Origin: a virus
Strand: one strand, 5' to 3'
DNA length: 30,441 nucleotides
IMG/VR virus record: IMGVR_UViG_3300042319_001342
Location: 1 to 30,441 of that record
The notes beneath the pieces are model-generated. The model had not been told where the DNA came from. It saw only the letters and a program-made list of their open reading frames with translations, and searched no databases. Made by a program: the position numbers and the translations under genes. This document shows, one piece after another, positions 1 through 26,135 of this stretch (the stretch's first letter is position 1; every line of letters begins with the position of its first letter).

Positions 1-299
1 TATCCCATACCAAAACTCATCTTCTGAATTTCATGAACAGGAGTTGGGGCAAGAGGGGCTGGGTCATACCAATCTTCATTGAAGTCAACCTCTGCGCCTT
101 GCGCAGCAGCAGCAATACGCATCTGCACACTCGTGTCATTATTGCAAGCTCTATACAAAAGAAATAACTCATTAAGAGTTAATTTTTCTTCAAGATAACC
201 CAAACTCTCCCAAGCACCTGTTTTAACAAATAACTCGGACTCATATTTGAGAAGGGGGATGTCCTCCCACTTTAGATCAGAACCCTGACCCGAAGTCAA
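1..299 (-). CDS. Tail assembly chaperone, second part (partial, runs off window start)
   Basis: This frame stays open from before the stop of the upstream chaperone gene to the window edge. It lies in the -1 frame relative to that gene. The translation includes the stretch WESLGYLEEKLTLNELFLLY followed by an Ala-rich MRIAAAAQGAEVDF segment, and is rich in acidic residues. I propose a TTG start at 297-299, because a perfect AGGAGG (308-313, minus strand) sits 8 nt upstream. The alternative is a -1 frameshift from the preceding gene, as in lambda gpG/gpGT, since the two frames overlap without a stop for about 13 codons. Position just after the major tail protein and chaperone, and before the expected tape measure gene, supports the assignment. 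The C-terminus lies outside the window. Confidence 0.6.
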   Translation of the reverse strand, partial: MTSGQGSDLKWEDIPLLKYESELFVKTGAWESLGYLEEKLTLNELFLLYRACNNDTSVQMRIAAAAQGAEVDFNEDWYDPAPLAPTPVHEIQKMSFGMG

Positions 300-316
300 G
301 TGTTCCCCCTCCTCGC

Positions 317-622
317 CTAGTAGGAAGGGTCTGAACCCATTGCGGCTGACATCAGTTCACCGAATGAACGAAGGTCAAGCACATCTTCAAGTTTTTCTTT
401 ATTATTACCGAGCTCTGGATCAACAGTAGCAAGTGCAATACCTGCTGCTTCTACCATGATGTCAATATCTGCATCGGACAGTGAATCTTCTGTTTTAAGA
501 TCCTTAACTACAGCCATAAACTTACGCAAATTGCGAATAGTCAAAGGCTTAATTGTTCTTGTCTTACCATCAGCAAAAATAATATCTCTTCCTGCCAAAA
601 TGTCTTTATTTTTATCGCTCAA
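317..622 (-). CDS. Tail assembly chaperone, first part (gpG-like)
   Basis: A 101-residue soluble, acidic and mostly helical protein lying two genes before the expected tape measure position and directly after the major tail protein. That is the standard place for the chaperone that coats the tape measure protein during tail assembly. It starts at TTG (620-622), with an AAGGA about 9 nt upstream; no ATG fits in frame nearby. It contains the PLTIRNLRKFM segment followed by a helical acidic region and ends in DPSY. It stops at TAG 317-319, and the next frame is already open there. Assignment comes mainly from size, composition and gene order, as families of this chaperone diverge strongly in sequence. 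Confidence 0.6.
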   Translation of the reverse strand: MSDKNKDILAGRDIIFADGKTRTIKPLTIRNLRKFMAVVKDLKTEDSLSDADIDIMVEAAGIALATVDPELGNNKEKLEDVLDLRSFGELMSAAMGSDPSY

Positions 623-731: not shown

Positions 732-1313
732 TTATGCGGTTTGATCAACGATCTTGCCGTACTCATAACCAGTGTCTGCTACTGTTGGCAAAATTCTAAA
801 GCCAACTGTAAACATTGTTGCTTCTGCACGCTTCATGCTGATTGAGGATGATTCCATTGAAATCGCACGCTTTGTGTAGAATGAACGGGTAAGAGTTGAA
901 CCTGCTGTTGAACCAGGTGCTGTACCTGTAACAACAAGTCCCTTCTCGTATGGGATTACTCCCTGTGCACCGAACAAGAATGTCTTTGTGTTTGCGCCAT
1001 CATTGTTAGCAATGATGTCATCTCCACCAGTGGTGTTATCGTAGTTCCAAGCAAGTGCGAGGTTATTAAGTGTACCCTCCGCAAGTGTTGTCTTAACCAT
1101 AACTTTAACCTTTGATTGAATTACTTTAGCTGCATCGCCAAATTGATCAATCTCAATGTCAACCATGTCTGGTTCCCACGAAATTTCCAAACCGTTTTGT
1201 GTTGCACCAATGTCAGCAAAGTTGTTCATTGCTGCGATGGTTGTTGCGTTAGCGTTGGTACCCAATTTAAGGGTTGCCTCGCCAACAATAATGTTAGAAA
1301 CATTAACTGCCAT
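732..1313 (-). CDS. Major tail tube protein
   Basis: A 193-residue protein forming the tail tube. It opens with VSNIIVGEATLKLG and a GLEISWEPDMVDIEIDQFGD segment, typical of siphovirus tail tube subunits of the lambda gpV/HK97-type fold, where early strands are followed by an Asp/Glu-rich loop facing the lumen. It ends with a beta-rich IVDQTA tail. Start ATG 1311-1313 has a strong AGGAGG about 6 nt upstream, fitting very high expression. It follows the terminator-type gene and precedes the chaperone pair, the canonical order. A strong hairpin follows the gene. No immunoglobulin-like decoration domain is seen at the C-terminus. Confidence 0.82.
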   Translation of the reverse strand: MAVNVSNIIVGEATLKLGTNANATTIAAMNNFADIGATQNGLEISWEPDMVDIEIDQFGDAAKVIQSKVKVMVKTTLAEGTLNNLALAWNYDNTTGGDDIIANNDGANTKTFLFGAQGVIPYEKGLVVTGTAPGSTAGSTLTRSFYTKRAISMESSSISMKRAEATMFTVGFRILPTVADTGYEYGKIVDQTA

Positions 1314-5698: not shown

Positions 5699-6538
5699 TT
5701 ATGCTAGCAATGCAGCCCAAGTCGGTTGATCAATTTGACCCGTTACTGGAATGTTTCTTGCTTTCTGAAATTGCTCAATAAGGTCTTGAGTTTTTTGACC
5801 AAAATCACCATCAGGTTTGCAAGGGTAGCCATTCTTTTCTAAAAGCCTTTGAGCTTCTTTGATAAAAAGACCTTTTTGACCCAACCGTAAAACAGGCTTG
5901 CCTTTTGCTTCCTCAACATTTGCTTTTGGTGCTGCAACTTTTGCTTCAGCAGCGGCTTTTTGTTCCGCTACAGTTCCAAACATCCCCACTGGTTTTGGAT
6001 TGCGAGCAACATATTCTTGTACAGCAGCAGTTGGGTTATCCCCAGATACATAACGAATGTGCCAAGGCTCTGAAGGAACAACTTCCCAACTCCACCCAAA
6101 CTTTTCAACATTTGCAATCAACCAATTCATCCTTTTCTTTTCAGAGGCGTTAGCAATATCAACAGCCAAGCCGAGATTATGCTGAGACTTACCAGGTGTT
6201 GCAAGCATTGCCATACCTTTCTTCAAATACCAAGTCTTACCTTCAAATTCTTTTGTTGAACCAGTACCAGTATCTTGAAGGCTATAGCGAGTTAAAAATC
6301 CAGCCTTTTGGCTGTCATAACTGCGATATAAATCACCGCTGCTCGTGGGAGTAAGTTCTACGCCAGCAGCTTTTGCAGCCTCAACCATTGCATTCCAAGC
6401 ATCTGCTGCAAGATAAAATAATTTTCCACCCGTTGAGATGTCTCGCAACAAACTTGGGTGCAACTTACCTGGCTCTACACTTTTTAATGCAGCAGGCATT
6501 TTAACGGGAACAATATAATCCCATTCAACTTTAGCCAT
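5699..6538 (-). CDS. Endolysin: M15 D,D-/L,D-carboxypeptidase with PG-binding domain
   Basis: A 279-residue cell-wall hydrolase. Residues about 25-165 form an M15 (VanY-like) zinc peptidase: the SQHNLGLAVDI motif gives zinc ligands H120 and D127, and EPWHIRYV gives catalytic E157 and ligand H160. Residues about 185-212 are an Ala/Lys linker. Residues 215-279 are a PG_binding_1 domain (LRLGQKGLFIKEAQRLLEKN, ending in PTWAALLA). It cleaves stem-peptide bonds in peptidoglycan at lysis. There is no signal peptide, so it needs a holin; three small membrane proteins lie directly upstream. Its ATG overlaps the stop of the nearest one (TAATG). Confidence 0.9.
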   Translation of the reverse strand: MAKVEWDYIVPVKMPAALKSVEPGKLHPSLLRDISTGGKLFYLAADAWNAMVEAAKAAGVELTPTSSGDLYRSYDSQKAGFLTRYSLQDTGTGSTKEFEGKTWYLKKGMAMLATPGKSQHNLGLAVDIANASEKKRMNWLIANVEKFGWSWEVVPSEPWHIRYVSGDNPTAAVQEYVARNPKPVGMFGTVAEQKAAAEAKVAAPKANVEEAKGKPVLRLGQKGLFIKEAQRLLEKNGYPCKPDGDFGQKTQDLIEQFQKARNIPVTGQIDQPTWAALLA

Positions 6539-7054: not shown

Positions 7055-7222
7055 TTATTCATCATCCTTCTTGATCATTTGACCAACAAGATGAATTACA
7101 GCAGCAATTACTGTGATTTTAATTGCAGAATTAAGCGTTGGACCAGACAGAGTAATAAATACCATAAAAGATCCAGATAAAGTCCATGTTAAATCATGCA
7201 TTTCTTTTAACAATTTTTTCAT
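7055..7222 (-). CDS. Tiny membrane protein (55 aa)
   Basis: The frame from ATG 7220-7222 to TAA 7055-7057 codes for MKKLLKEMHDLTWTLSGSFM followed by VFITLSGPTLNSAIKITVIA and AVIHLVGQMIKKDDE. It has a strong GGAGGAGA about 6 nt upstream, and its ATG overlaps the stop of the large surface protein gene (ATGA). Two hydrophobic segments flank a polar turn, and both ends are charged. It is the first of three small membrane proteins before the endolysin, so it could be a holin or antiholin, or a partner of the surface protein to which it is coupled. Confidence 0.7.
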   Translation of the reverse strand: MKKLLKEMHDLTWTLSGSFMVFITLSGPTLNSAIKITVIAAVIHLVGQMIKKDDE

Positions 7223-9192
7223 TTTATTCTCCTCCGAGGCTGACCCTTACGCCTATTAATTTTAGATGATTTTCCATTATCGGGCATACCGCCCCCACCA
7301 GCAGGTGAGCCTCCACTTCCACCCGATGACCCACCAGATAGTGGTGCAGCGCCAGCAGCAGTTGTAAGTGTTGTAGCGATTGCAGTTACAGCAACAAATG
7401 TTCTTCTTACCCCAACATTAATGCCTGAATCAGTCGGGACATATATATCAAACACCCCTTCAAATATATTAAGTTCTTCTTCAAATGCCTCTTTCACTTC
7501 CGTAGGAGCGTCTACAAGAGCTTGTGAAATTGCAAGACCATCTTCTGCTGTAACTTCAGAAACTACAATCACATCAAAGACTTCAGTTGCTTGAGATCCA
7601 TCAATGCTTTCAAGCACTTTGGGGCTTGTTGCTAATTCAGTTGCTTGATCAGCAGAAACACCGCCATCTTGACTGATAACTAAATCAACTACTTGCGAAA
7701 CTTGATCCGAACTAATTGTATCCGATTCCAAAACATCAACTACCGCAGTAAATGCTTCTTGTGTGAGAGGCTGTTCAAGCACAGCCGTAAAGGTTGTAAC
7801 CAATACCTCATCAGATACTTCCTCATCAAAGATAGCCGTAATAACCGCTGTAAGTTCTTCAATGGATACAGGTTGCGAAAGTACATCCTCGGCAAGAGAA
7901 ATAGTTTCTGCATCAGATAAGTCCCCGTCAAAAGCCGCAGTAAACACTGCTGTCAATTCTGCTGATGAAAGGTCGGAACTTAACAAGTTTTCAACAATTG
8001 CACCCATCTCTTCTACACTTGCTTCCTCACTAAAGACAGTATCCATTACAATTGTAAGTTCTTCACCCGAAAGACTAGAACTCAGCAAACTGACAAGGAC
8101 TTCAGACACCTGCTCTGTATCAGATGTATCGGTAAGTACGGCATCCATCACCGCAGTAAATTGTTCAGTAGAAAGGTCTGCGTCCAAGATATTATCAAGT
8201 GCAGCCGTTATTTCTTCTGTTGAAGCGTCAGCTGTAAAGGTGTCTTCAAGGATATTCGTTAATACCGCATCCGATATAACCTCACCGACAGAAGGTAGCG
8301 TTATATCTGTATCAACAGTAATGTCTGTATCAGGCACACTGGTGTTCGGAACAACTTCTTCAGGAATTGAGCTTGTGGTTTCAGCAGGTGTTTCTACAAC
8401 AACAGGCTCGGGATCTGGAATTGCAACTGTCGTAGGCTCTGGAGACACCTCCACAGGAGCCTCTGGGAGCGTTTCTGGTGTACTTATAACCTCAACCGTG
8501 GTTGCTGGAGCCTCTGGTGTAATTATAACAACTACCGCTGTTGTTTCTGGGATTACTACGGTTGTTGTTTCTGGGATTACTACGGTTGTTGTTGTTTCTG
8601 GGATGGTGCTTGTTGTTGTAGTCGTGGTTGTAGTCGTGGTTGTAGTAGTAGAGGTAGTCGTAGTGGTAGTAGAAGTTGTTGTAGTTGATTCAACAATACC
8701 ATTCCATAAAGATAAATTGCTAATTGTAAGATGACCAGGTTGACAGCAGGTATCTATTGAGTATTGGCGAAATGTAAAGATGTCGCCTTCTTCAACAGGC
8801 ACAGACAAGGTTCCCGATGAAGTGTTGACTTGTGTAATCAGCGTGTAAACCCCGTTGATACCGTACTGCGGTGGGTCATATACCCAACCGTCATTCGTTT
8901 GATATGACCAAGTAAAATCAAGGGTTGCTAGATCATCAGGGATTGTGGTTTCAATTTTGACCCAATGCGCTCCCCCACAAGGTGATCCTTGCGGTGCTAA
9001 TTGGTTATCAGGACCATGTAAAGTTATGGCGTTGTCTACGACTTCAATGTAACCACCACAGTTTTGTGATTGACTATATGCCCACTCGCCAAGCGCATCG
9101 GCTTTAACAGAGTACGGTGTTGGAAAAAACCAAGCGAAAATAAGTGCGGGCAAAATTACCCAGGAACCTTTTCTGAACCTAATGTTTTTCAC
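7219..9192 (-). CDS. Predicted secreted, membrane-anchored surface protein with 17-residue repeats
   Basis: A 657-residue protein of unknown function. Residues 1-31 look like a signal peptide (basic KNIRFRK, hydrophobic WVILPALIFAWFF, cleavage near SVKA-D). Residues 32-165 form a beta-rich domain with four or more Cys (C45, C72, C149, C150) and a WSYQTNDGWVYDPPQYGING motif, like extracellular domains I associate with aquatic Actinomycetota. Residues 169-196 are almost pure Thr, followed by a Pro/Glu/Thr/Val linker with IPETTTVV repeats to about 300. Residues about 306-563 hold roughly fourteen 17-residue helical repeats. Residues 598-616 are a probable membrane segment, followed by a Gly/Ser stretch and a basic tail (RRKGQPRRRIK). 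GTG start, with a leaderless -10 box. It may be displayed on infected cells, for superinfection exclusion or adhesion; this is inference. Confidence 0.75.
   Translation of the reverse strand: MKNIRFRKGSWVILPALIFAWFFPTPYSVKADALGEWAYSQSQNCGGYIEVVDNAITLHGPDNQLAPQGSPCGGAHWVKIETTIPDDLATLDFTWSYQTNDGWVYDPPQYGINGVYTLITQVNTSSGTLSVPVEEGDIFTFRQYSIDTCCQPGHLTISNLSLWNGIVESTTTTSTTTTTTSTTTTTTTTTTTTTSTIPETTTTVVIPETTTVVIPETTAVVVIITPEAPATTVEVISTPETLPEAPVEVSPEPTTVAIPDPEPVVVETPAETTSSIPEEVVPNTSVPDTDITVDTDITLPSVGEVISDAVLTNILEDTFTADASTEEITAALDNILDADLSTEQFTAVMDAVLTDTSDTEQVSEVLVSLLSSSLSGEELTIVMDTVFSEEASVEEMGAIVENLLSSDLSSAELTAVFTAAFDGDLSDAETISLAEDVLSQPVSIEELTAVITAIFDEEVSDEVLVTTFTAVLEQPLTQEAFTAVVDVLESDTISSDQVSQVVDLVISQDGGVSADQATELATSPKVLESIDGSQATEVFDVIVVSEVTAEDGLAISQALVDAPTEVKEAFEEELNIFEGVFDIYVPTDSGINVGVRRTFVAVTAIATTLTTAAGAAPLSGGSSGGSGGSPAGGGGMPDNGKSSKINRRKGQPRRRIK
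7504..8226 (-). repeat. About fourteen tandem 17-codon (51-bp) repeats
   Basis: Inside the surface protein gene, units of 17 residues follow each other almost without gaps, for example ASTEEITAALDNILDAD, LSTEQFTAVMDAVLTDT, LSGEELTIVMDTVFSEE and VSIEELTAVITAIFDEE. The pattern is hydrophobic/Ser-x-x-Glu-x-hydrophobic-Thr-Ala-hydrophobic, with an acidic end. Units near the end (ISSDQ..., VSADQ..., IDGSQ...) are more divergent, and two are one or two residues longer. Units differ enough at the DNA level to indicate old duplication. Confidence 0.8.
8605..8685 (-). repeat. Poly-threonine low-complexity codon run
   Basis: About 27 codons, nearly all Thr with occasional Ser, form a stalk-like linker after the N-terminal domain. 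They use mixed ACT/ACA/ACC/ACG codons, so selection acts on the protein rather than simple DNA slippage. The antisense strand shows a meaningless poly-Val frame. Confidence 0.85.
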
Positions 9193-9284: not shown

Positions 9285-9575
9285 TTAGTTAAACCACCAC
9301 CAATGTTTAAGAATAGATAAAGAAGCAAGAATTACCCATAGAACATTAAAAAGAATAATTGTGGGAAGTGTCTTTTTCGTAGATGTCCAGATTAAAGCAA
9401 CGCTGGAGATGATGGCAAAGATGTAGAGCCACCAAAACTGTTTGCCGAATAAAAGACCAGGAAAGATAATTGCAATCTTTGTGGAAAATCCCCAAGCCTC
9501 TACGGTATTCACTCTTGTCCAGTAGTCCCTGGAGGACATTGTTTTAATAGCTGAAATAATTTTATTAGAAAACAT
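9285..9575 (-). CDS. Small integral membrane protein, unknown
   Basis: A 96-residue protein. The first 30 residues are polar and amphipathic (SAIKTMSSRDYWTRVNTVEA). They are followed by three hydrophobic stretches: KIAIIFPGLLF, WWLYIFAIISSVALIWTS and TIILFNVLWVILASLSIL. It ends in HWWWFN. I chose ATG 9573-9575 over TTG 9576-9578. It overlaps the preceding gene by 11 nt, so it probably works with the unknown proteins of the halogenase island. I do not recognise a family. Confidence 0.55.
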   Translation of the reverse strand: MFSNKIISAIKTMSSRDYWTRVNTVEAWGFSTKIAIIFPGLLFGKQFWWLYIFAIISSVALIWTSTKKTLPTIILFNVLWVILASLSILKHWWWFN

Positions 9576-10239
9576 CAAAAAGATCTTTTGGTCGTTGAGT
9601 ATCTATCTTTGATTTTAACCACAAATTAAACTGTTCTGACATATCAGGAATGTTGGACGGTCTTTCTTGAGCAAAAACATCTCCCTTCAAGTATCTATAC
9701 AAGTGCATGTCGGGAAGTTGATTGATCTCACTTACAATATCTTCAGGAATATCCAAAAGCTCCAGTGAATACTTTGAGTACTCAGCCATTATTTCCCTAT
9801 TGTTAAATGGCTCTTCGTACACAGACGACCACTCAAGCATGTTCTTAAAGAGCTCCTGCATTGTTCTAGCACACCATAATCTAGCCTTGTCTTTTGTTGC
9901 TTCATAACTACTATCAAAATAAGTAAATTTAGTAGCGGAAGAAATTGCCTTCGTCTCTGGAACCTCAATATAGATGATATAAAAATGAGGAGAATAGTCA
10001 AGCACTATTTGATAAGTCTGTAAGTGGGAAACGGTAGGTATCCAATCAACACCGAATGGAAACTCAGAATCCTCTTGCCAAAGCAATGCTTGTGGACCGT
10101 AACCTCCTGAGTCGCAACGAAACATTGAATCTTCTAGACCAGTTGAATTGACAAACATACCTTTAGTCAAGACAAATAAACCTTGTTGGTCATTTTGTCC
10201 AATTACTTTTAAAAAATTAGAATAATCTATCGGTTCCAT
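9565..10239 (-). CDS. Unknown soluble protein of the halogenase island
   Basis: A 224-residue protein, aromatic-rich, with no membrane segment. The N-terminal half reads as beta strands (GLFVLTKGMFVNSTGLED, SPHFYIIYIEVPETK), the C-terminal half as helices (LWCARTMQELFKNMLEW; SKYSLELLDIPEDIVSEINQ). The first in-frame ATG is at 10252-10254, but GTGGAGGAAAAT follows it and sits 5 nt before the ATG at 10237-10239, so I start there. It overlaps the upstream gene by 13 nt. No catalytic motif is recognised; partnership with halogenase and oxygenase is inferred from tight gene packing only. Confidence 0.55.
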   Translation of the reverse strand: MEPIDYSNFLKVIGQNDQQGLFVLTKGMFVNSTGLEDSMFRCDSGGYGPQALLWQEDSEFPFGVDWIPTVSHLQTYQIVLDYSPHFYIIYIEVPETKAISSATKFTYFDSSYEATKDKARLWCARTMQELFKNMLEWSSVYEEPFNNREIMAEYSKYSLELLDIPEDIVSEINQLPDMHLYRYLKGDVFAQERPSNIPDMSEQFNLWLKSKIDTQRPKDLFDVF

Positions 10240-11060
10240 ATTTTCCTCCACCATTTTTTATTTAATAGGTCTTTTTCTATTTTACCATCTACGACACGCC
10301 TATTTTGCCTATATGGTTTTGCCGTTGATGAACCCGATGGGAATACTGGACCCGCATTAAACCCTCTACTTGCTACAAATCGTGTCCAAGAAGAATCTTC
10401 AAACTTTACCGTTGGTGTGCCATATTTTCTTTCAAATGGAATCAAATGTAATACTGGTGTTCCATATTTTATTGTAAATTCTTTGTCAGTTTTAATATTT
10501 AAAACAAGATTCATGATGTGATAAAAATCCGTGTGAACAACTGCGGGTATAACATCGTAGTTTAAGTTTGGCTCAAACAAAACGGGAAGCACCAATGTAG
10601 ACCAACCTGGTGCTGTAATAAATGACCACGGGTTAACAATCTTAGGATAGCAAGAGTCCTCTATTTTTCTTACATCAGTCATTGGGCATACTCCAGTTTG
10701 ACCAAAACCAAAAGATTGCACAGCAAATACTTCTTCACCTTGGTTCCCTACTTTGATCTGGTCTAAGTTAACATTCCACCTTCTGTCAGTGCTTGGGTCT
10801 GGAGAAAAAACGGCGTTTGTCCACATTGGAACCGTTATCCCCACATTTAAAAAATCCTGTGTCCCCGCACATCCTCTTATAGAGCCTGCATACTTACCAA
10901 TATTACGAAACCACTTTGGAGTATTTGAAATAGTATTTGCGTAAGGTTTTCCTTGTTCTTCCATCATACTTGGATGTTGCGGCACTATAAGAATTTCCCC
11001 TGCTTTTGGTTTTTTCAAATGCTCGTAGTTCTTATTTTTTATTGAGCGAAACTTAATCAT
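10227..11060 (-). CDS. Unknown protein adjacent to halogenase (possibly DUF6065-like)
   Basis: A 277-residue protein. It shows PMWTNAVFSPDPSTDRRWNV, NPWSFITAPGWSTLVLPVLF, a VIPAVVHTDFYHIMNLVLNI segment and then YGTPVLHLIPFERKYG. The pattern of a membrane-free beta core with a conserved Pro-Trp segment, a VVHTD motif and a G-x-P-hydrophobic-x-x-x-IPFER ending recalls DUF6065-like proteins of unknown function, but I cannot confirm this. It overlaps the halogenase gene by 8 nt and has AAGGAG before its ATG. A role with the halogenase, such as substrate or cofactor supply, is inference. Confidence 0.55.
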   Translation of the reverse strand: MIKFRSIKNKNYEHLKKPKAGEILIVPQHPSMMEEQGKPYANTISNTPKWFRNIGKYAGSIRGCAGTQDFLNVGITVPMWTNAVFSPDPSTDRRWNVNLDQIKVGNQGEEVFAVQSFGFGQTGVCPMTDVRKIEDSCYPKIVNPWSFITAPGWSTLVLPVLFEPNLNYDVIPAVVHTDFYHIMNLVLNIKTDKEFTIKYGTPVLHLIPFERKYGTPTVKFEDSSWTRFVASRGFNAGPVFPSGSSTAKPYRQNRRVVDGKIEKDLLNKKWWRKIWNR

Positions 11061-12528
11061 TATAAAGCTCCTTCAATGATTGAGCATGGTCAACAGTTTC
11101 GTGGTCAAACCTTGCTAGCATAACATTAGACATATGTTGAGCAACTTTTCCTCTAATACTTAATCTCTCAAGCAAAGTAGAAGATGAATTGCGATTTAGG
11201 ACATTCTGCCCTTGAGCAACATGTATTAGGTGTGCTGGCAAAAAGAGTTCTCCATTAGTAAATGAAACATCTTCACGCATGGGGAGTCTTTCGCTCCAAA
11301 GCGCTAACAACTCCTCAAGAGTAGGGTTGATAGGCATTTCTGAAACTGCTCTCCAAAATGGAGTATCAGCACGATCTGAGACATAGTGTAAACGAATCAT
11401 TGTTAAGACATTATCCATCATTAAGTTTATTCTCTTATTATAAAACTTCTGCATGTGCTGATTATTTTCATTATATGAAGCCAGATTTCCTACCAAGTTT
11501 ATAACTTGTTGGATCGTAGTACCAATACTGGTTGCCTCAAGCGGTTCAACAAAAGCAGAGGCTAAACCTACGGCGCAACAATTTTTTACCCATGTTTGCT
11601 CAAGATGACCTGCATCAAATTTAAAAGTCTTATGAGCACCAACTGTGTAGTTAGTTACTACCTGTACTTCATTAATTGCTTCTTCTTCTGTAATAAAGTC
11701 AGATGCAAACACATAGCCGTTACCTCTTCTTTGCTGTGTGGGAATTTCCCATATCCACCCAGCAGATGCGGCTCTTGCCCTTGTGTATGGTCTTATCTCT
11801 CCACTTGGGTCTGATTCTGTTGGAAAAGCAATTGCTGAATCTACAAGCAGATACTTGCTAAAAGAGTTCCACTTTGCTGCACCTAGTTTTGTCATTAAAA
11901 GTCTTTTAAGCCCAGTTGCGTCAATCCAAAAGTCAGCTTCTAATGTTGCTGTATTTTCAAGGACAATAGACTCTATGTTTCCATTTTCTACATTTAATGT
12001 TATATCTTTTACTTCTGCATCAATAATTTTAATCCTTCTTTCAAAACAAAGTTTCTCAAAAAAAGCATTAAGTTTCATTGTGTCAAAATGATATTGGTTT
12101 GTATTGTTATGCAAATTGTGTTTACGAATTCTGTTTTTTAGAAAACCATCTGTAGTCATTGCGGTTGTTAAGAATTGGTTTTTTTCTATAAATCCTGCGT
12201 ACAAACCAAAGTTATTCCAATTGAAACCCGAATCATCACCACCCACACTGTGAAAGTAGTCTGAGTTCTTAGTGTGCCAATTTTCAAAACGAATACCATA
12301 TTTATGGGTAGCATCCGTTTGTGTTAACAAATCATGCAATGGAATTTCACATAACTCCATAAACTTCTTCCAGTGCTCTGTACTGCCCTCCCCCACCCCG
12401 ATTATTCCTATCTTTGATGAAGAAACAATAGTTATATCTGAAGACGGAAAAGCCTGTCTAATGATTATTGCAGCAATCATTCCTGCTGTACCAGACCCAA
12501 CTATGCCTATAGAGAAGTTGTTACTCAT
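11053..12528 (-). CDS. Flavin-dependent (tryptophan-type) halogenase
   Basis: A 491-residue FADH2-dependent halogenase, which makes HOCl/HOBr/HOI-type oxidant at the flavin and passes it to a substrate through an active-site Lys. Visible motifs (numbered from ATG 12526-12528): FAD-binding GSGTAG (residues 11-16), IGVGEGSTEHW (44-54), catalytic Lys K76 within THKYGIRFENW, the WIWEIP signature (258-263) and EPLEATSIG (328-336) with the conserved Glu. Length is close to PrnA-type enzymes. The ATG overlaps the stop of the oxygenase gene (ATGA); the longer TTG start at 12537 is less likely. A halogenase of cyanophage Syn10 (VirX1) is known to iodinate small molecules, so phage halogenases can be active. 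Confidence 0.9.
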   Translation of the reverse strand: MSNNFSIGIVGSGTAGMIAAIIIRQAFPSSDITIVSSSKIGIIGVGEGSTEHWKKFMELCEIPLHDLLTQTDATHKYGIRFENWHTKNSDYFHSVGGDDSGFNWNNFGLYAGFIEKNQFLTTAMTTDGFLKNRIRKHNLHNNTNQYHFDTMKLNAFFEKLCFERRIKIIDAEVKDITLNVENGNIESIVLENTATLEADFWIDATGLKRLLMTKLGAAKWNSFSKYLLVDSAIAFPTESDPSGEIRPYTRARAASAGWIWEIPTQQRRGNGYVFASDFITEEEAINEVQVVTNYTVGAHKTFKFDAGHLEQTWVKNCCAVGLASAFVEPLEATSIGTTIQQVINLVGNLASYNENNQHMQKFYNKRINLMMDNVLTMIRLHYVSDRADTPFWRAVSEMPINPTLEELLALWSERLPMREDVSFTNGELFLPAHLIHVAQGQNVLNRNSSSTLLERLSIRGKVAQHMSNVMLARFDHETVDHAQSLKELYND

Positions 12529-13097
12529 GCAAACCAAGTCACTAATGAGTATTTAACACCATCGTTTACGGGATGTGCTTGATGGTCGTAAGTAAGCCCT
12601 GACGGAAATAAAACAACTGAACCTGGAGTAGCCTCAATTTCTACTTTATGAAAAGGAAATTCCAGCATTCCGCCGCTAGAAGTGTTTTCTAAAATAGCAA
12701 CTAAACTAAAAAGTCTATTGAATCCTCTACCAGCATCAAGGTGCGTTCCGTATCTAGCTCCATTTTCGTATCTTAGCATTTGCATAGGTTCATGATACCC
12801 GCTTTTTGCCATAAAATACGCAGAGTAATCTAGAAAGCAATCTTGCAAAGGTAAATAAATATCATTCCTAAACATGTCATATAAGTGATGTGTCTTGTTT
12901 GGATTCATAATCCATTGCAAATCACAACCATCTGATGTTCTATATTCCGTTGCCTCTCCACCAGATCCAATCAAAGATTTCCTCCAAAAAGTTTCTGCTC
13001 CTCGCAAACATTCTTTTTCTAATTCTTGGATAAAATTCTTACCATCAAGGACATCTTGATAAACAGAAATTCCTATTGACTTTTCTTGCAGTTTCAT
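12525..13097 (-). CDS. 2-oxoglutarate/Fe(II)-dependent oxygenase (prolyl 4-hydroxylase-like)
   Basis: A 190-residue double-stranded beta-helix oxygenase. Iron ligands are visible as H119 and D121 (YGTHLDAGRG), and the distal His H172 lies in the LTYDHQAHPV segment. K182 in GVKYSLVTWF takes the place of the usual Arg that holds 2-oxoglutarate. The GGMLEFP and PGSVVLFPSG segments are typical of the P4H-like branch. I start at ATG 13095-13097, which overlaps the previous TAA (TAATG), rather than the longer upstream start. Its ATGA junction with the halogenase suggests joint action on one substrate, or hydroxylation of virion proteins. Confidence 0.85.
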   Translation of the reverse strand: MKLQEKSIGISVYQDVLDGKNFIQELEKECLRGAETFWRKSLIGSGGEATEYRTSDGCDLQWIMNPNKTHHLYDMFRNDIYLPLQDCFLDYSAYFMAKSGYHEPMQMLRYENGARYGTHLDAGRGFNRLFSLVAILENTSSGGMLEFPFHKVEIEATPGSVVLFPSGLTYDHQAHPVNDGVKYSLVTWFA

Positions 13098-13513
13098 TAG
13101 ATTACCTGAAAAGATCTCTCTATGACGCATTCATCTTTTGAATAGATTTTAAAAATATATTCGCCAATCAGCTGTGGTCTATACAAAAAACGAAGGTGGT
13201 GCTCTTCGTGAATAATCGGAAAAACTTTGTCTTGATCAATTGAGTCGCTGCTCATAATACAATAATCGTCCTTGTTGAAGTTAATCCAATCATTTGTGTA
13301 GTAAATGCATTGAATAAAATTTACTTTAACCGTTTTTTCAAAAGAGCAAATATTAATTGTTGGTACAAACAATAATTGCACAATTTCTTCATCAAAAGTT
13401 ATATCATTCATTGATTTACTTTTGCCAATCGTAATTGGCAATTGTGTCTGTAGTGATAAACTTTCTGCTTGTGCCATGTCTCCATTAGCAGGGCAGTAAA
13501 TAACTCTTTGCAT
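13097..13513 (-). CDS. Unknown beta-rich protein upstream of oxygenase
   Basis: A 138-residue protein with strand-like segments: QRVIYCPANGDMAQAESLSL, EEIVQLLFVPTINICSFEKT, KVNFIQCIYYTNDW, and a final LIGEYIFKIYSKDECVIERS strand group that looks like the end of an Ig-like or lectin-like domain. No family is recognised. It joins the oxygenase by TAATG and directly follows the small gene at 13514, so it is part of the same transcription and translation unit. It may be a small virion subunit or a partner of the oxygenase. Confidence 0.55.
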   Translation of the reverse strand: MQRVIYCPANGDMAQAESLSLQTQLPITIGKSKSMNDITFDEEIVQLLFVPTINICSFEKTVKVNFIQCIYYTNDWINFNKDDYCIMSSDSIDQDKVFPIIHEEHHLRFLYRPQLIGEYIFKIYSKDECVIERSFQVI

Positions 13514-19204: not shown

Positions 19205-20251
19205 TTAAAGAGTGCGCAGTTTGACATTCTTTGCAAGAACATAAGACTCAAGGTTCTCAATGTTGTTTGCAACACGCATAAACTGTGTGTACTCAATTGT
19301 GTCAGTCTTTGGTTGGAACTGACGGTAGAGGGTGATGTCACGGTGGATACCAATAACTCTATTGTTTGGGAATGTTAATTCAACATAACCATGTGAACCA
19401 GCAGCGGCTGAATAGTCACCCGAAACTGTTTCTGGCATGAGTGGAATTTCCACCAATGGAATACCATAAGGAGAAATTCCAGTAGCACCTGGACCACCGT
19501 TTGCACGGATTGAACCATTCAAGAATGCTTGCTCACCATATGTTGATGCTGGGGCTGCTGCTCCAGATGTTGCGGCTGTTGCCGAGTTAGGATTCTGCAA
19601 GCTGAAAGATGTGTCTTGCACAACTGCCGAGCCTGTGAAGAATCGCAATTCGTTACGGCGTTGCAAATACTTGCTTGGCATGTTACGAAGAACTCTGTCG
19701 TAGGTTGCACGGGAAACATTGTTTCCTGCTTCATCAATAACAGTTGCACCTGCAAGAGCTAACTTGCTGAAACCATCAAGAGCCTTCAAAAGACCATTGT
19801 TGGATGATGTGTTACCATTAATCAAAAGATCGTCAAGATCGTTTGCTGTTTGGCGAGCCATCATTTGTGCAAGGTGATCTTCTAACGAAGCACCCTCAAT
19901 GTTATCCTCAAGCGACTCTGTGCTCAATTCCCAATCCAAACGAAGCTTTACGCTGTTCAACGAAACTTTAGAAAAAGTTACCGCTGCGTTTGAACCAGTG
20001 TCACTGGCTTCTGTTGCTTTTGCCATAATTCTTGTACCGACTGACACCTTGTCAATGTCAACCTGAGGTGTACGCATGCGCACAACTCTTGAACTTTGCA
20101 TCAAAGTTGATTGATCTACTACGAAATCAATAAAACGATTTGACTGTTCTGCATTAAGGAGACCACCGATAGAGCTTACACCGCTACCCGAGTTCACCAC
20201 TGCCGTTGTTACTTCATTAGCTTTTGCTAAAATTTCATTTTGTGTTGCCAT
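19205..20251 (-). CDS. Major capsid protein (HK97 fold)
   Basis: A 348-residue capsid subunit. It has an N-terminal helical start (NEILAKANEVTTAVVNSGSG), a FIDFVVDQSTLMQSSRVVRM segment typical of the N-arm of HK97-fold proteins, LDWELSTESLEDNIEGASLE (spine region), then a P-domain and an A-domain ending in YVLAKNVKLRTL. It follows the protease/scaffold gene, as expected. ATG 20249-20251 has GGGAGG about 7 nt upstream. The N-terminus shows no long delta domain, in line with a scaffold supplied by the protease fusion. Confidence 0.88.
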   Translation of the reverse strand: MATQNEILAKANEVTTAVVNSGSGVSSIGGLLNAEQSNRFIDFVVDQSTLMQSSRVVRMRTPQVDIDKVSVGTRIMAKATEASDTGSNAAVTFSKVSLNSVKLRLDWELSTESLEDNIEGASLEDHLAQMMARQTANDLDDLLINGNTSSNNGLLKALDGFSKLALAGATVIDEAGNNVSRATYDRVLRNMPSKYLQRRNELRFFTGSAVVQDTSFSLQNPNSATAATSGAAAPASTYGEQAFLNGSIRANGGPGATGISPYGIPLVEIPLMPETVSGDYSAAAGSHGYVELTFPNNRVIGIHRDITLYRQFQPKTDTIEYTQFMRVANNIENLESYVLAKNVKLRTL

Positions 20252-20265
20252 ATGATGATCCTCCC

Positions 20266-21894
20266 TTATGACCTATAACCCAAAGAGCTAATTAACTCTT
20301 GTGGTAAATACATATTGCTCCAGAATGACTTTGGTGCGGACTTAACAAGCTCCTCACCATCTTCATCATCTTCTGGGTCAACGCTTTTCTTAACAGCTCC
20401 TGCTTGAGCGAATTCCTCAACCTTTGCTGTTTGAACCTCTAAGGCTTTCTCAGTTGTCTCCAACTTCTCAGCCAATTCAATTTTCTGATCCTCAACGCTC
20501 TTTGTTACAGCCTCAATTTTAGCATCAACATTCGCTTCTACTTCTTGTTTAAATGAAGTTGCGAAGTCGGTAAGCTTTTGATCAATGACTGAACCAAGGG
20601 CTTCTTTAAGAACTTCAATATCCATATCTTGTTCCTCCACTTGTTCAACAATCACATCCGCTTCTGTTGAAGCTTCTGTATCCTGCTCGGACTTTTCTAG
20701 TCCTAAATTATCAATTGGACCTACCCAATTAATAAACTTCTTAATAAATGACATCTTGTTATCTGTCAAAGAATTATCCATAGGGATTACACTATCATAT
20801 TTTTCTAAATTTTGCAATTCCTTATCAACATTAATTTCACAATTACATGATTTTTCTACTTCCATAACAATCTCCTCGTATAATTCATCCAAGAGCATAT
20901 CAATAATATCATTATCAACATTATCAGTTGCCATTGTAAAATCTTCTTCAATTGATTCTGCATAACCCGAACTCTCAATAATGTCTAGCAGAGAATCAAG
21001 TAAGGAGTTATCAAAATCATTTTCCGAAACACTCTTCTTCTTAGTGTTGGCATACCTTTCCAACAACCTACGACCTTTGGCTGCAAGAGCAGCGGCATCT
21101 GAAGAGTTCTGTGGAACTGGCTCACCCCATGCGGCGGCAGAAAGGGCTAAGCGACTAGGCTCGCCATTTGGCTTCTTCATTGGTCCAGAAGGGTTGGTGA
21201 AAAATCTTGTTAAGAAAGAACCTTTGCGGCGCATTTTCTCTGGGGTATTGGCGGCTCCACGAACACCTGGCTTTAAGTTTGCGCCCTCTGTTTGTTTAAA
21301 GTGCCTTCTACCAGCAGCAGTCAATCCACCCTTTGGATCCTTTAATGGCTGTTTTGCTTTTTCAATCTGGCAATCCAAGTCGCAATCAAGAGCGTAATTC
21401 AAATCCCCAACATTGTTCATTTTTACCAAATCAATTACTGCCATAGCATTTGCTGGGTTATCTACTAAACTTAACTCACCAAGATCGTATTCTTTAATAA
21501 TAGAAATTGGTCTGCCATTATGCATCTTGCCTTCCATGACTTCTTTCTTTGTAATCCGACCACCGATTGAAAAGGCACGAAGTGTTCCATCAAGAACTTT
21601 TTGCCAAGTAGCCTCGGCACCTTTGGAGATATAAGCTTCCACTTGAATAGCGTTATACTCTTGACCATCCTCGCCTTTTAACTTTAAAGGTTTGTAACTA
21701 ATGGCTTTTCCAACAGCAATAGGGGCATGCATTTCACGAATGTTGCCTTGCCAGTTTTTAAAAGCAATCTCTGATGCTGCAAAATCAACAATATCATTAG
21801 ACTTATCAACATTGTCAGCTGTAGCAACACCGCATACAATGCGCTGCTCTGTCTTAATCATTGTGATTGGAAATGAAAAATTAAGATTGTCCAT
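20266..21894 (-). CDS. Prohead protease fused to scaffold, with inserted DUF6321-like domain
   Basis: A 542-residue protein. Residues about 8-158 are an HK97-type prohead serine protease: likely catalytic H56 (REMHAPIAVGKA) and S109 (GTLRAFSIGGR), and the signature YDLGELSLVDNPAN. Residues about 184-283 form a compact basic domain, KDPKGGLTAAGRRHFKQTEG followed by KMRRKGSFLTRFFTNPSGPM and ALSAAAWGEPVP, which I recognise as DUF6321-like. An acidic linker follows, then a coiled coil at about 425-498 (scaffold) and a final LPQELISSLGYRS. The protease processes the prohead; the basic insert may interact with DNA or another head part. A TATACT and AGGG lie upstream. Confidence 0.82.
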   Translation of the reverse strand: MDNLNFSFPITMIKTEQRIVCGVATADNVDKSNDIVDFAASEIAFKNWQGNIREMHAPIAVGKAISYKPLKLKGEDGQEYNAIQVEAYISKGAEATWQKVLDGTLRAFSIGGRITKKEVMEGKMHNGRPISIIKEYDLGELSLVDNPANAMAVIDLVKMNNVGDLNYALDCDLDCQIEKAKQPLKDPKGGLTAAGRRHFKQTEGANLKPGVRGAANTPEKMRRKGSFLTRFFTNPSGPMKKPNGEPSRLALSAAAWGEPVPQNSSDAAALAAKGRRLLERYANTKKKSVSENDFDNSLLDSLLDIIESSGYAESIEEDFTMATDNVDNDIIDMLLDELYEEIVMEVEKSCNCEINVDKELQNLEKYDSVIPMDNSLTDNKMSFIKKFINWVGPIDNLGLEKSEQDTEASTEADVIVEQVEEQDMDIEVLKEALGSVIDQKLTDFATSFKQEVEANVDAKIEAVTKSVEDQKIELAEKLETTEKALEVQTAKVEEFAQAGAVKKSVDPEDDEDGEELVKSAPKSFWSNMYLPQELISSLGYRS

Positions 21895-24206: not shown

Positions 24207-26135
24207 TTACTTAATAGGGCATGCGCCTGTCGCACAATCATCCAAATCAATATCCAAGTTGGCAGCGTTTTGATGAATTGGAGTTGAAAAGTCTAATTTA
24301 GAGAACACTTTATCGTATTGATCTTTAGTGATCTCTTCATACGGAGGTAGAGGAAAGTTGTGGTCAACATGCAACAAGAAAGATACTGACTTAACAGATG
24401 AGTCGTAATTGTTAGACAACCACTCTTTCACCGCTGGCAATTCTTCTTTACGATAATAAACCGTTACAGATACTGCGTTATCCGCCCAGATTGTTTGCAT
24501 CTTCTTAACCCACTCTAATTGCTCAAGAGCAGTCATGTTTGCAACCAGAATTGAATTGTCTGGAGATTTGCACGGAAACTCCACAACATACCTTGTGTGG
24601 TCTTCCCTGCCATCCAAGCCCATATCCCATGTAACTTTATAACCACGCTTACGGCATGCATCCACTAGTGGGTCAACAGAGCTAAACCTAACCCTGCGAA
24701 TATAATACGGAGCAAAGGCTGGATGGATTCCAGGAGTCACACCTGGAAGCAGTGAAAGCGTACCTGACGGCTGAACCGTTGTTAAACGAACAGATTGGTT
24801 CCAACCACGCTCTTTGCTATAGAACGCATCAAAATCTTTTAAGAACTCATAGGTTTGAGATAGCCAACCAATTTGCTGCTCAGTGCATTGCAGAATCCCA
24901 GTAATTGATTGCCCAAGTCGGGTATTCTTTCTAACAATGTTTGTTGTTTTCTCATAAGGGTATGATAACTGAGTTATCTGTTTTTGAATCAAGTACAGAA
25001 GTTTTGATATCTCTAACAACTGCCCGAGACTTTCAACATTTGGCAAAAAGATAGTTGCAAGGTTACATGACTCACCATCGGCAAGAGCAATCTCTGCACA
25101 TGGGTTAAATCCCTCAATAGATGAATCTAGGGACTTTTCACCCAATCTTCCGTATGTTCTTGCAAGTTTGCGATTAACAAGACCATAAGGTTCCCCTGTT
25201 CCGTCATACCCCTTCCAGAGTTCGGGCAGGATCTCTTCATAAGAATCTGCATAGATGCTATTGTTGCTATTTGCTCTCCATGCTGGAACATTGCCAGATC
25301 CCCAATTCTTTGCCTTAAGGAAAAGAATATCATCAGGATCACCAATAGCAATTTGCGCAGAACGGCGTGATGAGCCAGAAACAACAATACGCCCAATAAT
25401 ATTACAAATATCTAACACATCAATTGAACGAAGTTTTTTACCAACACGGTTGTCTAGAACTTTACAAATGTCTGCGATGCCATCAACTAAAGCTCCAGAA
25501 CCAGAAGCTGTCCCACCAAAAGTCTTAAGTGGTGTTCCAAACTCACGAATCAAAATAGTTGAGTATGTAAAAGATTTGCCATTTTTGAAATATGACTCAA
25601 GCACTTTATGGAGCAATTCTCGCCAGCCCTGCCTTGAGTCTGGAACAATGAAGTCTGCGTCATTTGTACGCTCGGCTGTAATTGAACCAACCAACTTAAC
25701 TTTAGGCAATTCGTGGATCTTGGATCTCTCTACAGAAAAACCAACTCCACCACCCAGCATGAGGTAATCAAACAACATTTCAAAATCTTCAATTTTCTCA
25801 ATATTTGTATAAAAACAATTATTCAATGAAGTACCTGAGAACTGCTTTACAAGAGGCGTACCGAGTTGCCAAAGGGCTCTGCCAGACACTGCGCATCGTA
25901 GATTGAACATATGATCAAATAAATTCTCTGCGTCTTCCTTGGAGAAAGGAACTCCAATATCAACAGCCCCTTCTATAATCCTCTGAATGGTTTGAACCCA
26001 CGATTCAGTTTGGTCTGTACCTTCAATTTTACGGCTATATGTCCTAAGGAATACAACCTCCCCAAGACCGCCAAAACCCCAAGGTGGAGTTTTAGATCCA
26101 TAGCTAGCAATAAATTCAGGTGACAATAAAGACAT
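24207..26135 (-). CDS. nrdJ: Adenosylcobalamin-dependent ribonucleoside-triphosphate reductase (class II)
   Basis: A 642-residue monomeric class II ribonucleotide reductase, which reduces ribonucleoside triphosphates to deoxy forms with B12. Residues matching Lactobacillus leichmannii RTPR: C107 (NNCFYTN), N344/C346/E348 (FNPCAEIAL) and C357 (GESCNLAT), keeping the 11-residue gap of C408/C419; C-terminal redox pair C634/C639 with the same spacing as C731/C736. It is about 100 residues shorter than that enzyme. GGAGGT lies before the ATG. It works in the cytoplasm without a second subunit and supplies dNTPs for phage DNA; it depends on host or environmental cobalamin. Confidence 0.92.
   Translation of the reverse strand: MSLLSPEFIASYGSKTPPWGFGGLGEVVFLRTYSRKIEGTDQTESWVQTIQRIIEGAVDIGVPFSKEDAENLFDHMFNLRCAVSGRALWQLGTPLVKQFSGTSLNNCFYTNIEKIEDFEMLFDYLMLGGGVGFSVERSKIHELPKVKLVGSITAERTNDADFIVPDSRQGWRELLHKVLESYFKNGKSFTYSTILIREFGTPLKTFGGTASGSGALVDGIADICKVLDNRVGKKLRSIDVLDICNIIGRIVVSGSSRRSAQIAIGDPDDILFLKAKNWGSGNVPAWRANSNNSIYADSYEEILPELWKGYDGTGEPYGLVNRKLARTYGRLGEKSLDSSIEGFNPCAEIALADGESCNLATIFLPNVESLGQLLEISKLLYLIQKQITQLSYPYEKTTNIVRKNTRLGQSITGILQCTEQQIGWLSQTYEFLKDFDAFYSKERGWNQSVRLTTVQPSGTLSLLPGVTPGIHPAFAPYYIRRVRFSSVDPLVDACRKRGYKVTWDMGLDGREDHTRYVVEFPCKSPDNSILVANMTALEQLEWVKKMQTIWADNAVSVTVYYRKEELPAVKEWLSNNYDSSVKSVSFLLHVDHNFPLPPYEEITKDQYDKVFSKLDFSTPIHQNAANLDIDLDDCATGACPIK

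Follow-up and report, generated by a model that had tools for sequence, protein, structure and literature searches.

A probable -1 frameshift at a conserved, non-canonical slip site in a phage tail assembly chaperone cassette

Introduction

A known system of the same kind as the locus studied here is the G/GT gene pair of phage lambda, whose slip heptamer is G GGA AAG. In that system, as PMC5009743 describes it, a -1 shift near the end of the first open reading frame (ORF) produces a longer fusion protein, and the system works with the tape measure and major tail proteins. The likeness that we draw to lambda concerns these points, and the heptamer differs, being C CCT TCC here. A guide to the size of such effects comes from PMC3711429, where reporters showed 6-7% shifting for two different genes of this kind. 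In Streptomyces phages, 5 of 14 records (Yaboi, Emma1919, Phredrick, Patelgo and Sham) annotate the homologous gene as a tail assembly chaperone joined from two pieces.

Phage slippery sites outside the X XXY YYZ pattern rest largely on annotation and prediction, and the PRFect paper (PMC10885494) says as much of its own data on such sites. That paper proposed a "threetwotwo" slippery motif, of which CCCGGAA is given as the commonest example, and suggested that G:U pairing at CCCGGAA mimics a standard heptamer. A literature search combining CCCTTCC or CCCUUCC with frameshifting returned no title on such a site among the matches listed.

Here we analysed a 30,441-base virus contig (record IMGVR_UViG_3300042319_001342, hereafter the window), at one edge of which two overlapping ORFs lie on the minus strand. 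Comparison of related sequences, from which we infer both that a shift occurs and that it is placed at the heptamer, makes it very probable (about 93%) that they form a cassette for tail assembly chaperones of the lambda G/GT type under programmed -1 ribosomal frameshifting.

Results

Gene A (317-622, minus strand) encodes a gpG-like protein of 101 amino acids and ends at TAG 319-317. Its start as called is TTG 622-620, behind AAGGA; relatives have ATG, TTG or GTG there. Gene B (3-326, minus strand), the T-like extension that would be read after a shift, lies in the -1 frame relative to gene A and is open from position 356, following TGA 359-357, to the window edge, which cuts it; the -1 frame of one relative (L002) terminates 359 nt beyond the gene A stop. 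Reading the sequence bore out the positions given in the first-pass annotation for the open overlap (356-317), for C CCT TCC (323-329) and for an AGGAGG lying 8 nt before TTG 297-299. In relatives, gene B has a conserved core around WEDIPLLKYE.

That annotation had called the two ORFs a tail chaperone pair, an identification that both homology and gene order support. Gene A matched phrog_10504 (E 2.6e-10), a family without a named function that also takes in the Yaboi protein annotated as a tail assembly chaperone (E 2.4e-46). A tblastn search with gene A, run to an E-value of 1, hit 122 phage records, of which 116 belong to Streptomyces phages; the 20 matches listed, at 32-35% identity, were all annotated as tail assembly chaperones. 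Gene B on its own gave a weak family match (phrog_10474, E 0.044), and neither gene matched Pfam. The upstream neighbour (732-1313, minus strand) is a probable major tail protein with an Ig-domain family match (phrog_2175, E 1.6e-23; phrog_476, major tail protein, E 1.7e-5). The downstream side of the window is cut off, but in relatives gene A sits between the major tail protein and tape measure genes; in one of these (L005) the gene following B matched tape measure phrogs (best E 1.8e-7). A scan for promoters and terminators gave one promoter-like match and no terminator.

Elsewhere on the minus strand, the window carries a phage-borne FAD-dependent tryptophan halogenase family gene (11053-12537; PF04820, E 3.9e-103), which adjoins a 2OG-Fe(II) oxygenase gene (12525-13130; PF13640, E 5.2e-13); the neighbouring ORFs at 10227-11060 and 9565-10254 had no Pfam match at E 0.001. 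There are also a B12-dependent (class II) ribonucleotide reductase (24207-26135; PF17975, PF02867 and PF21995), a VanY-type peptidase with a peptidoglycan-binding domain that is a probable endolysin (5699-6538), and a 657-amino-acid protein with a long Thr/Ser repeat tract (7219-9192), whose Pfam matches all fell below the curated cut-off.

Together with the window and with 14 named records from Streptomyces phages, chosen from 127 that matched, the relatives collected in our scans made up 312 rows, one of which (L058) ends before the gene A stop. Over 350 nt, 103 of the sequences were distinct, 89 from the window's family and 14 from Streptomyces phages; 71 of the 89, the window included, were below 97% nucleotide identity to one another in gene A and formed the non-redundant set. 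Since these sequences are related, counts among them are not independent, and since the alignment scans took the best 80 of 137, of 344 and of 166 relatives, variants that are rarer or more distant may have escaped the sample. Genome contigs scanned with alignment A2 yielded 283 pattern stretches, none of them from a relative. Scans of viral contigs with the single proteins of L056 and Yaboi gave one and three loci (L064-L067), which were left out of the counts: the first is the L056 contig again, and the other three are of the Yaboi type and carry CCCGGAA at the homologous position.

In all 103 distinct sequences, the second ORF is conserved in the -1 frame and is open from the heptamer across the gene A stop. 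A heptamer was present at the last Asp-Pro codons of gene A in all 71 non-redundant sequences, as CCCTTCC in 43, CCCTTCT in 3, CCCAAAC in 24 and CCCAAAT in 1. The Asp codon was GAC in 70 of the 71 and GAT in the other (L161), for which a second CCCAAAC 6 nt further on was counted as the site. The first-pass annotation had regarded C CCT TCC as non-canonical, which it is, X XXY YYZ being broken at the A site by the missing YYY; the 25 sequences with CCCAAAC/T follow the canonical pattern and the 46 with CCCTTC[CT] do not. The same annotation had also called it a weak slip candidate; it is the likely slip site, kept at the same codons across relatives.

The number of heptamers in the window is at chance (3 CCCTTCC against 2.47 expected); what lies above chance is their conservation in relatives. 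Across 39 scanned ORFs (9391 codons), CCCTTCC occurs in the slip frame once, at the A/B site. Slip-frame CCCTTCT is found once, at codon 234 of the head-protease gene (20266-21894, minus strand), and slip-frame CCCAAAC once, in a virion/major-head gene (19205-20251, minus strand).

Three relatives delimit the site closely. In 8 of the 71 sequences the heptamer is immediately preceded by a TGA in the -1 frame, so that this frame opens exactly there, and in L042 and L117 (both CCCTTCC) and L056 (CCCAAAC) a 0-frame stop also follows directly 3'. Any -1 shift in these three is therefore confined to the seven nucleotides of the heptamer.

Codon usage at the site is also constrained. The Pro codon was CCT in 46 sequences, followed by TCC (43) or TCT (3), and CCA in 25, followed by AAC (24) or AAT (1). 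Its third base thus matched the next base in all 71, compared with 32% of 869 background Pro codons, and C-preceded codons with such a match made up 6.6% of that background. TCC accounts for 5.5% of 2171 background Ser codons and 7.6% of Ser codons in the window, but for 43 of the 46 at the slip site, the other three being TCT and none TCA or TCG; the Ser codon three positions earlier varied (TCA 34, TCC 9, TCT 6, AGC 1). Codon entropy averaged 1.25 bits over the 41 degenerate columns in which the amino acid is at least 90% conserved, as against 0.11 bits for GAC, 0.94 for Pro, with its two linked states, and 0.35 for the Ser column, which at 65% Ser falls outside those 41.

Which tRNAs would slip can be considered from these patterns. 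A tRNA-Ser with anticodon GGA on UCC or UCU can re-pair with UUC (U-A, U-G, C-G), whereas TCA or TCG would need another tRNA with a poorer fit; tRNA-Glu (UUC) on GAA re-pairs with GGA likewise through a middle G-U. A match between the third Pro base and the next base is required for tandem slippage and not for single slippage. The linkage of these two bases and the limitation of Ser to TCC/TCT thus fit tandem slippage in which tRNA-Ser(GGA) forms a central G-U. We regard a tandem slip of this kind, with tRNA-Ser(GGA) re-pairing to UUC in the A site, as the likeliest mechanism and a probable one; it would give the transframe peptide ...SFGELMSAAMGSDPSLLGEEGEHLTSGQGSDLK. Another way of shifting frame is for the P-site Pro-tRNA alone to move from CCU to CCC with the A site empty and the Ser codon uninvolved, giving ...GSDPFLLGEEG... 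instead. CCC is indeed the one element common to all variants seen, and tRNA-Pro(GGG) would exchange a G-U wobble for a G-C pair. A single slip, however, calls for neither the third-base match, found at 71 of 71 sites against 32% of background, nor the TCC/TCT restriction at all 46 Ser codons, and we consider it a doubtful though serious variant of frameshifting.

A hairpin is predicted 3' of the heptamer at 314-249, with a basal stem pairing 314-304 with 259-249 (11 bp) and an inner helix above it (minimum free energy -35.7 kcal/mol). It begins 8 nt 3' of the heptamer, the intervening spacer (322-315) containing the 0-frame TAG. Its stability had z-scores of -4.1 against dinucleotide shuffles and -4.5 against synonymous recoding. 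Over the 71 sequences the mean shuffle z-score was -2.98, with 52 below -2 and 10 above -1.5; 284 control windows taken from these loci averaged -0.07, with 20 below -2. Synonymous recoding, from which L226 was left out because the anchor motif is missing, gave a mean z-score of -3.66 over 70 sequences, 51 of which were more stable than all 100 of their recodings. When arms were swapped between sequences, pairing weakened from -17.35 kcal/mol with own arms to -14.05, and none of 20,000 permutations was as good as the native combination.

A stimulator of -1 frameshifting is expected as an RNA structure that follows the slip site at a distance of 5-9 nt; the longest uninterrupted predicted stem began at that distance in 54 of 70 sequences, and at 7-8 nt in 45, the other 25 lying elsewhere. 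RNAalifold found no consensus pair in the 70-row alignment. A stem in fixed register received weak support: 74.0% of cells were paired, a value reached by 9 of 500 shuffles, the covariation score was reached by 25 of 500, and moving the partners by -1 to -3 columns gave similar scores. We read these results as a stem whose register slides rather than as the lack of a stem.

The first-pass annotation had left open whether frameshifting, separate initiation of gene B at TTG 299-297, or both were used. Initiation at this TTG has some features to recommend it: AGGAGG (313-308) at 8-nt spacing is a good Shine-Dalgarno sequence, gene A of the same phage also has TTG as its called start, and gene B is annotated as a gene of its own, without a join, in 9 of the 14 Streptomyces records. 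Gene A starts, located in 61 of the 71 relatives, were ATG, TTG or GTG, so TTG starts are plausible in these phages. The TTG in question, however, is limited to the window, L002 and L030 among the 103 distinct sequences, and these three are near-identical to one another; L003, for instance, has a non-start codon in its place. No ATG, GTG or TTG stands between the heptamer and the conserved Trp in 61 of the 71 non-redundant sequences. The first reading had named relatives with a canonical slippery site and no start codon here as evidence against initiation, and such relatives exist: 25 of 71 carry CCCAAAC/T, and 21 of these 25 lack a start codon in that interval. In the model, moreover, AGGAGG lies in the 5' arm of the hairpin with a paired probability of 1.0, and the TTG lies in the inner helix, with two of its three bases paired (probabilities 0.97, 0.95 and 0.02). 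Separate initiation also leaves the codon constraint at the heptamer unexplained. We therefore rejected initiation at this TTG as the main mode; whether as a replacement for frameshifting or alongside it, separate initiation of B is very unlikely, although additional use of TTG 297-299 within the window's own lineage may occur. What had seemed a second start signal is more likely a piece of the predicted stimulatory hairpin.

Transcriptional slippage, a +2 shift or another shift joining the frames is less probable still. Any of these would yield the identical frame, but the site has no long run of A or T, and a hairpin 7-8 nt downstream, as predicted in 45 of 70 sequences, is what -1 ribosomal shifting uses. 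That no fusion is made and the overlap is a chance outcome of gene packing agrees with the chance number of heptamers in the window but is barely credible given the conserved heptamer, hairpin and open -1 frame and the 61 of 71 sequences in which no start codon precedes the conserved part of B.

Discussion

The -1 frameshift joining A and B that had been proposed from the window is supported by the open -1 frame, by the downstream predicted hairpin, and by the comparison of relatives that had been suggested as a check, which located a slip site at the same Asp-Pro codons in all 71. Taken together, the conserved heptamer, the confinement of any -1 shift in three relatives, the hairpin and the rarity of the TTG indicate that programmed -1 frameshifting is most likely, rather than a restart. 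The case is ordinary in kind, a tail-chaperone -1 frameshift, with a slip site that is conserved and non-canonical.

We propose that translation would mostly end at TAG 319-317, yielding the short chaperone. In a minority of cases the ribosome would be held up by the hairpin (314-249) while Pro-tRNA occupies CCT and Ser-tRNA occupies TCC; both tRNAs would then move back by a single base, to CCC and TTC, and translation in the -1 frame would produce the long fusion. For the ratio of the two products and for what they do in tail assembly, we draw on lambda and on the homologues in Streptomyces phages.

One homologous site occurs in three sequence classes under strong codon constraint, with any -1 shift confined to CCCTTCC in two relatives. 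In a quick tree of 85 proteins with the slip region omitted, the classes CCCAAA, CCCTTC and CCCGGA require at least four changes; the starred branches are compatible with a single origin of CCCTTC, and a long-branch warning from the tree program leaves the root and the place of L226 unsure. We lean toward the view that the slip site, at one fixed position in the gene, has been switched between CCCAAAY and non-canonical CCCUUCY or, in Streptomyces phages, CCCGGAA, with both tRNAs always able to re-pair if a central A-site G-U is allowed. If this is true, the middle-position G-U rule would be a real and evolutionarily used extension of the slippery code, and CCCUUCY would be a class in which A-site tRNA-Ser(GGA) reads UUC. 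The slip-site classes form a natural series in which the tolerance of the bacterial ribosome for different codon-anticodon re-pairings can be probed. The locus also shows how a gene finder could be led to a spurious start for gene B by sequence that belongs to the predicted stimulatory hairpin.

The Stanwilliamsviridae phages of Streptomyces (Yaboi, Emma1919 and others) are among the closest known systems, having a homologous gene A (32-35% identity among the matches listed), the major tail protein before it and the tape measure after it, a -1 frame, and a heptamer at the homologous Asp-Pro. They differ in that this heptamer is CCCGGAA in 7 of the 14 records examined and CCCAAAT in the other 7, and in having a longer 0-frame stretch 3' of the heptamer. 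The window's CCCTTCC fits the threetwotwo motif of PRFect, taking the name to mean XXXYYZZ; 43 of 71 sequences fit in all, and the three with CCCTTCT depart from the pattern in the last base. In the main text of PMC10885494, "ccc" occurs twice, once within CCCGGAA, which indicates that CCCTTCC is absent from that part of the paper. The idea of G:U re-pairing is already PRFect's (PMC10885494); what is new here is family-wide support for CCCUUCY.
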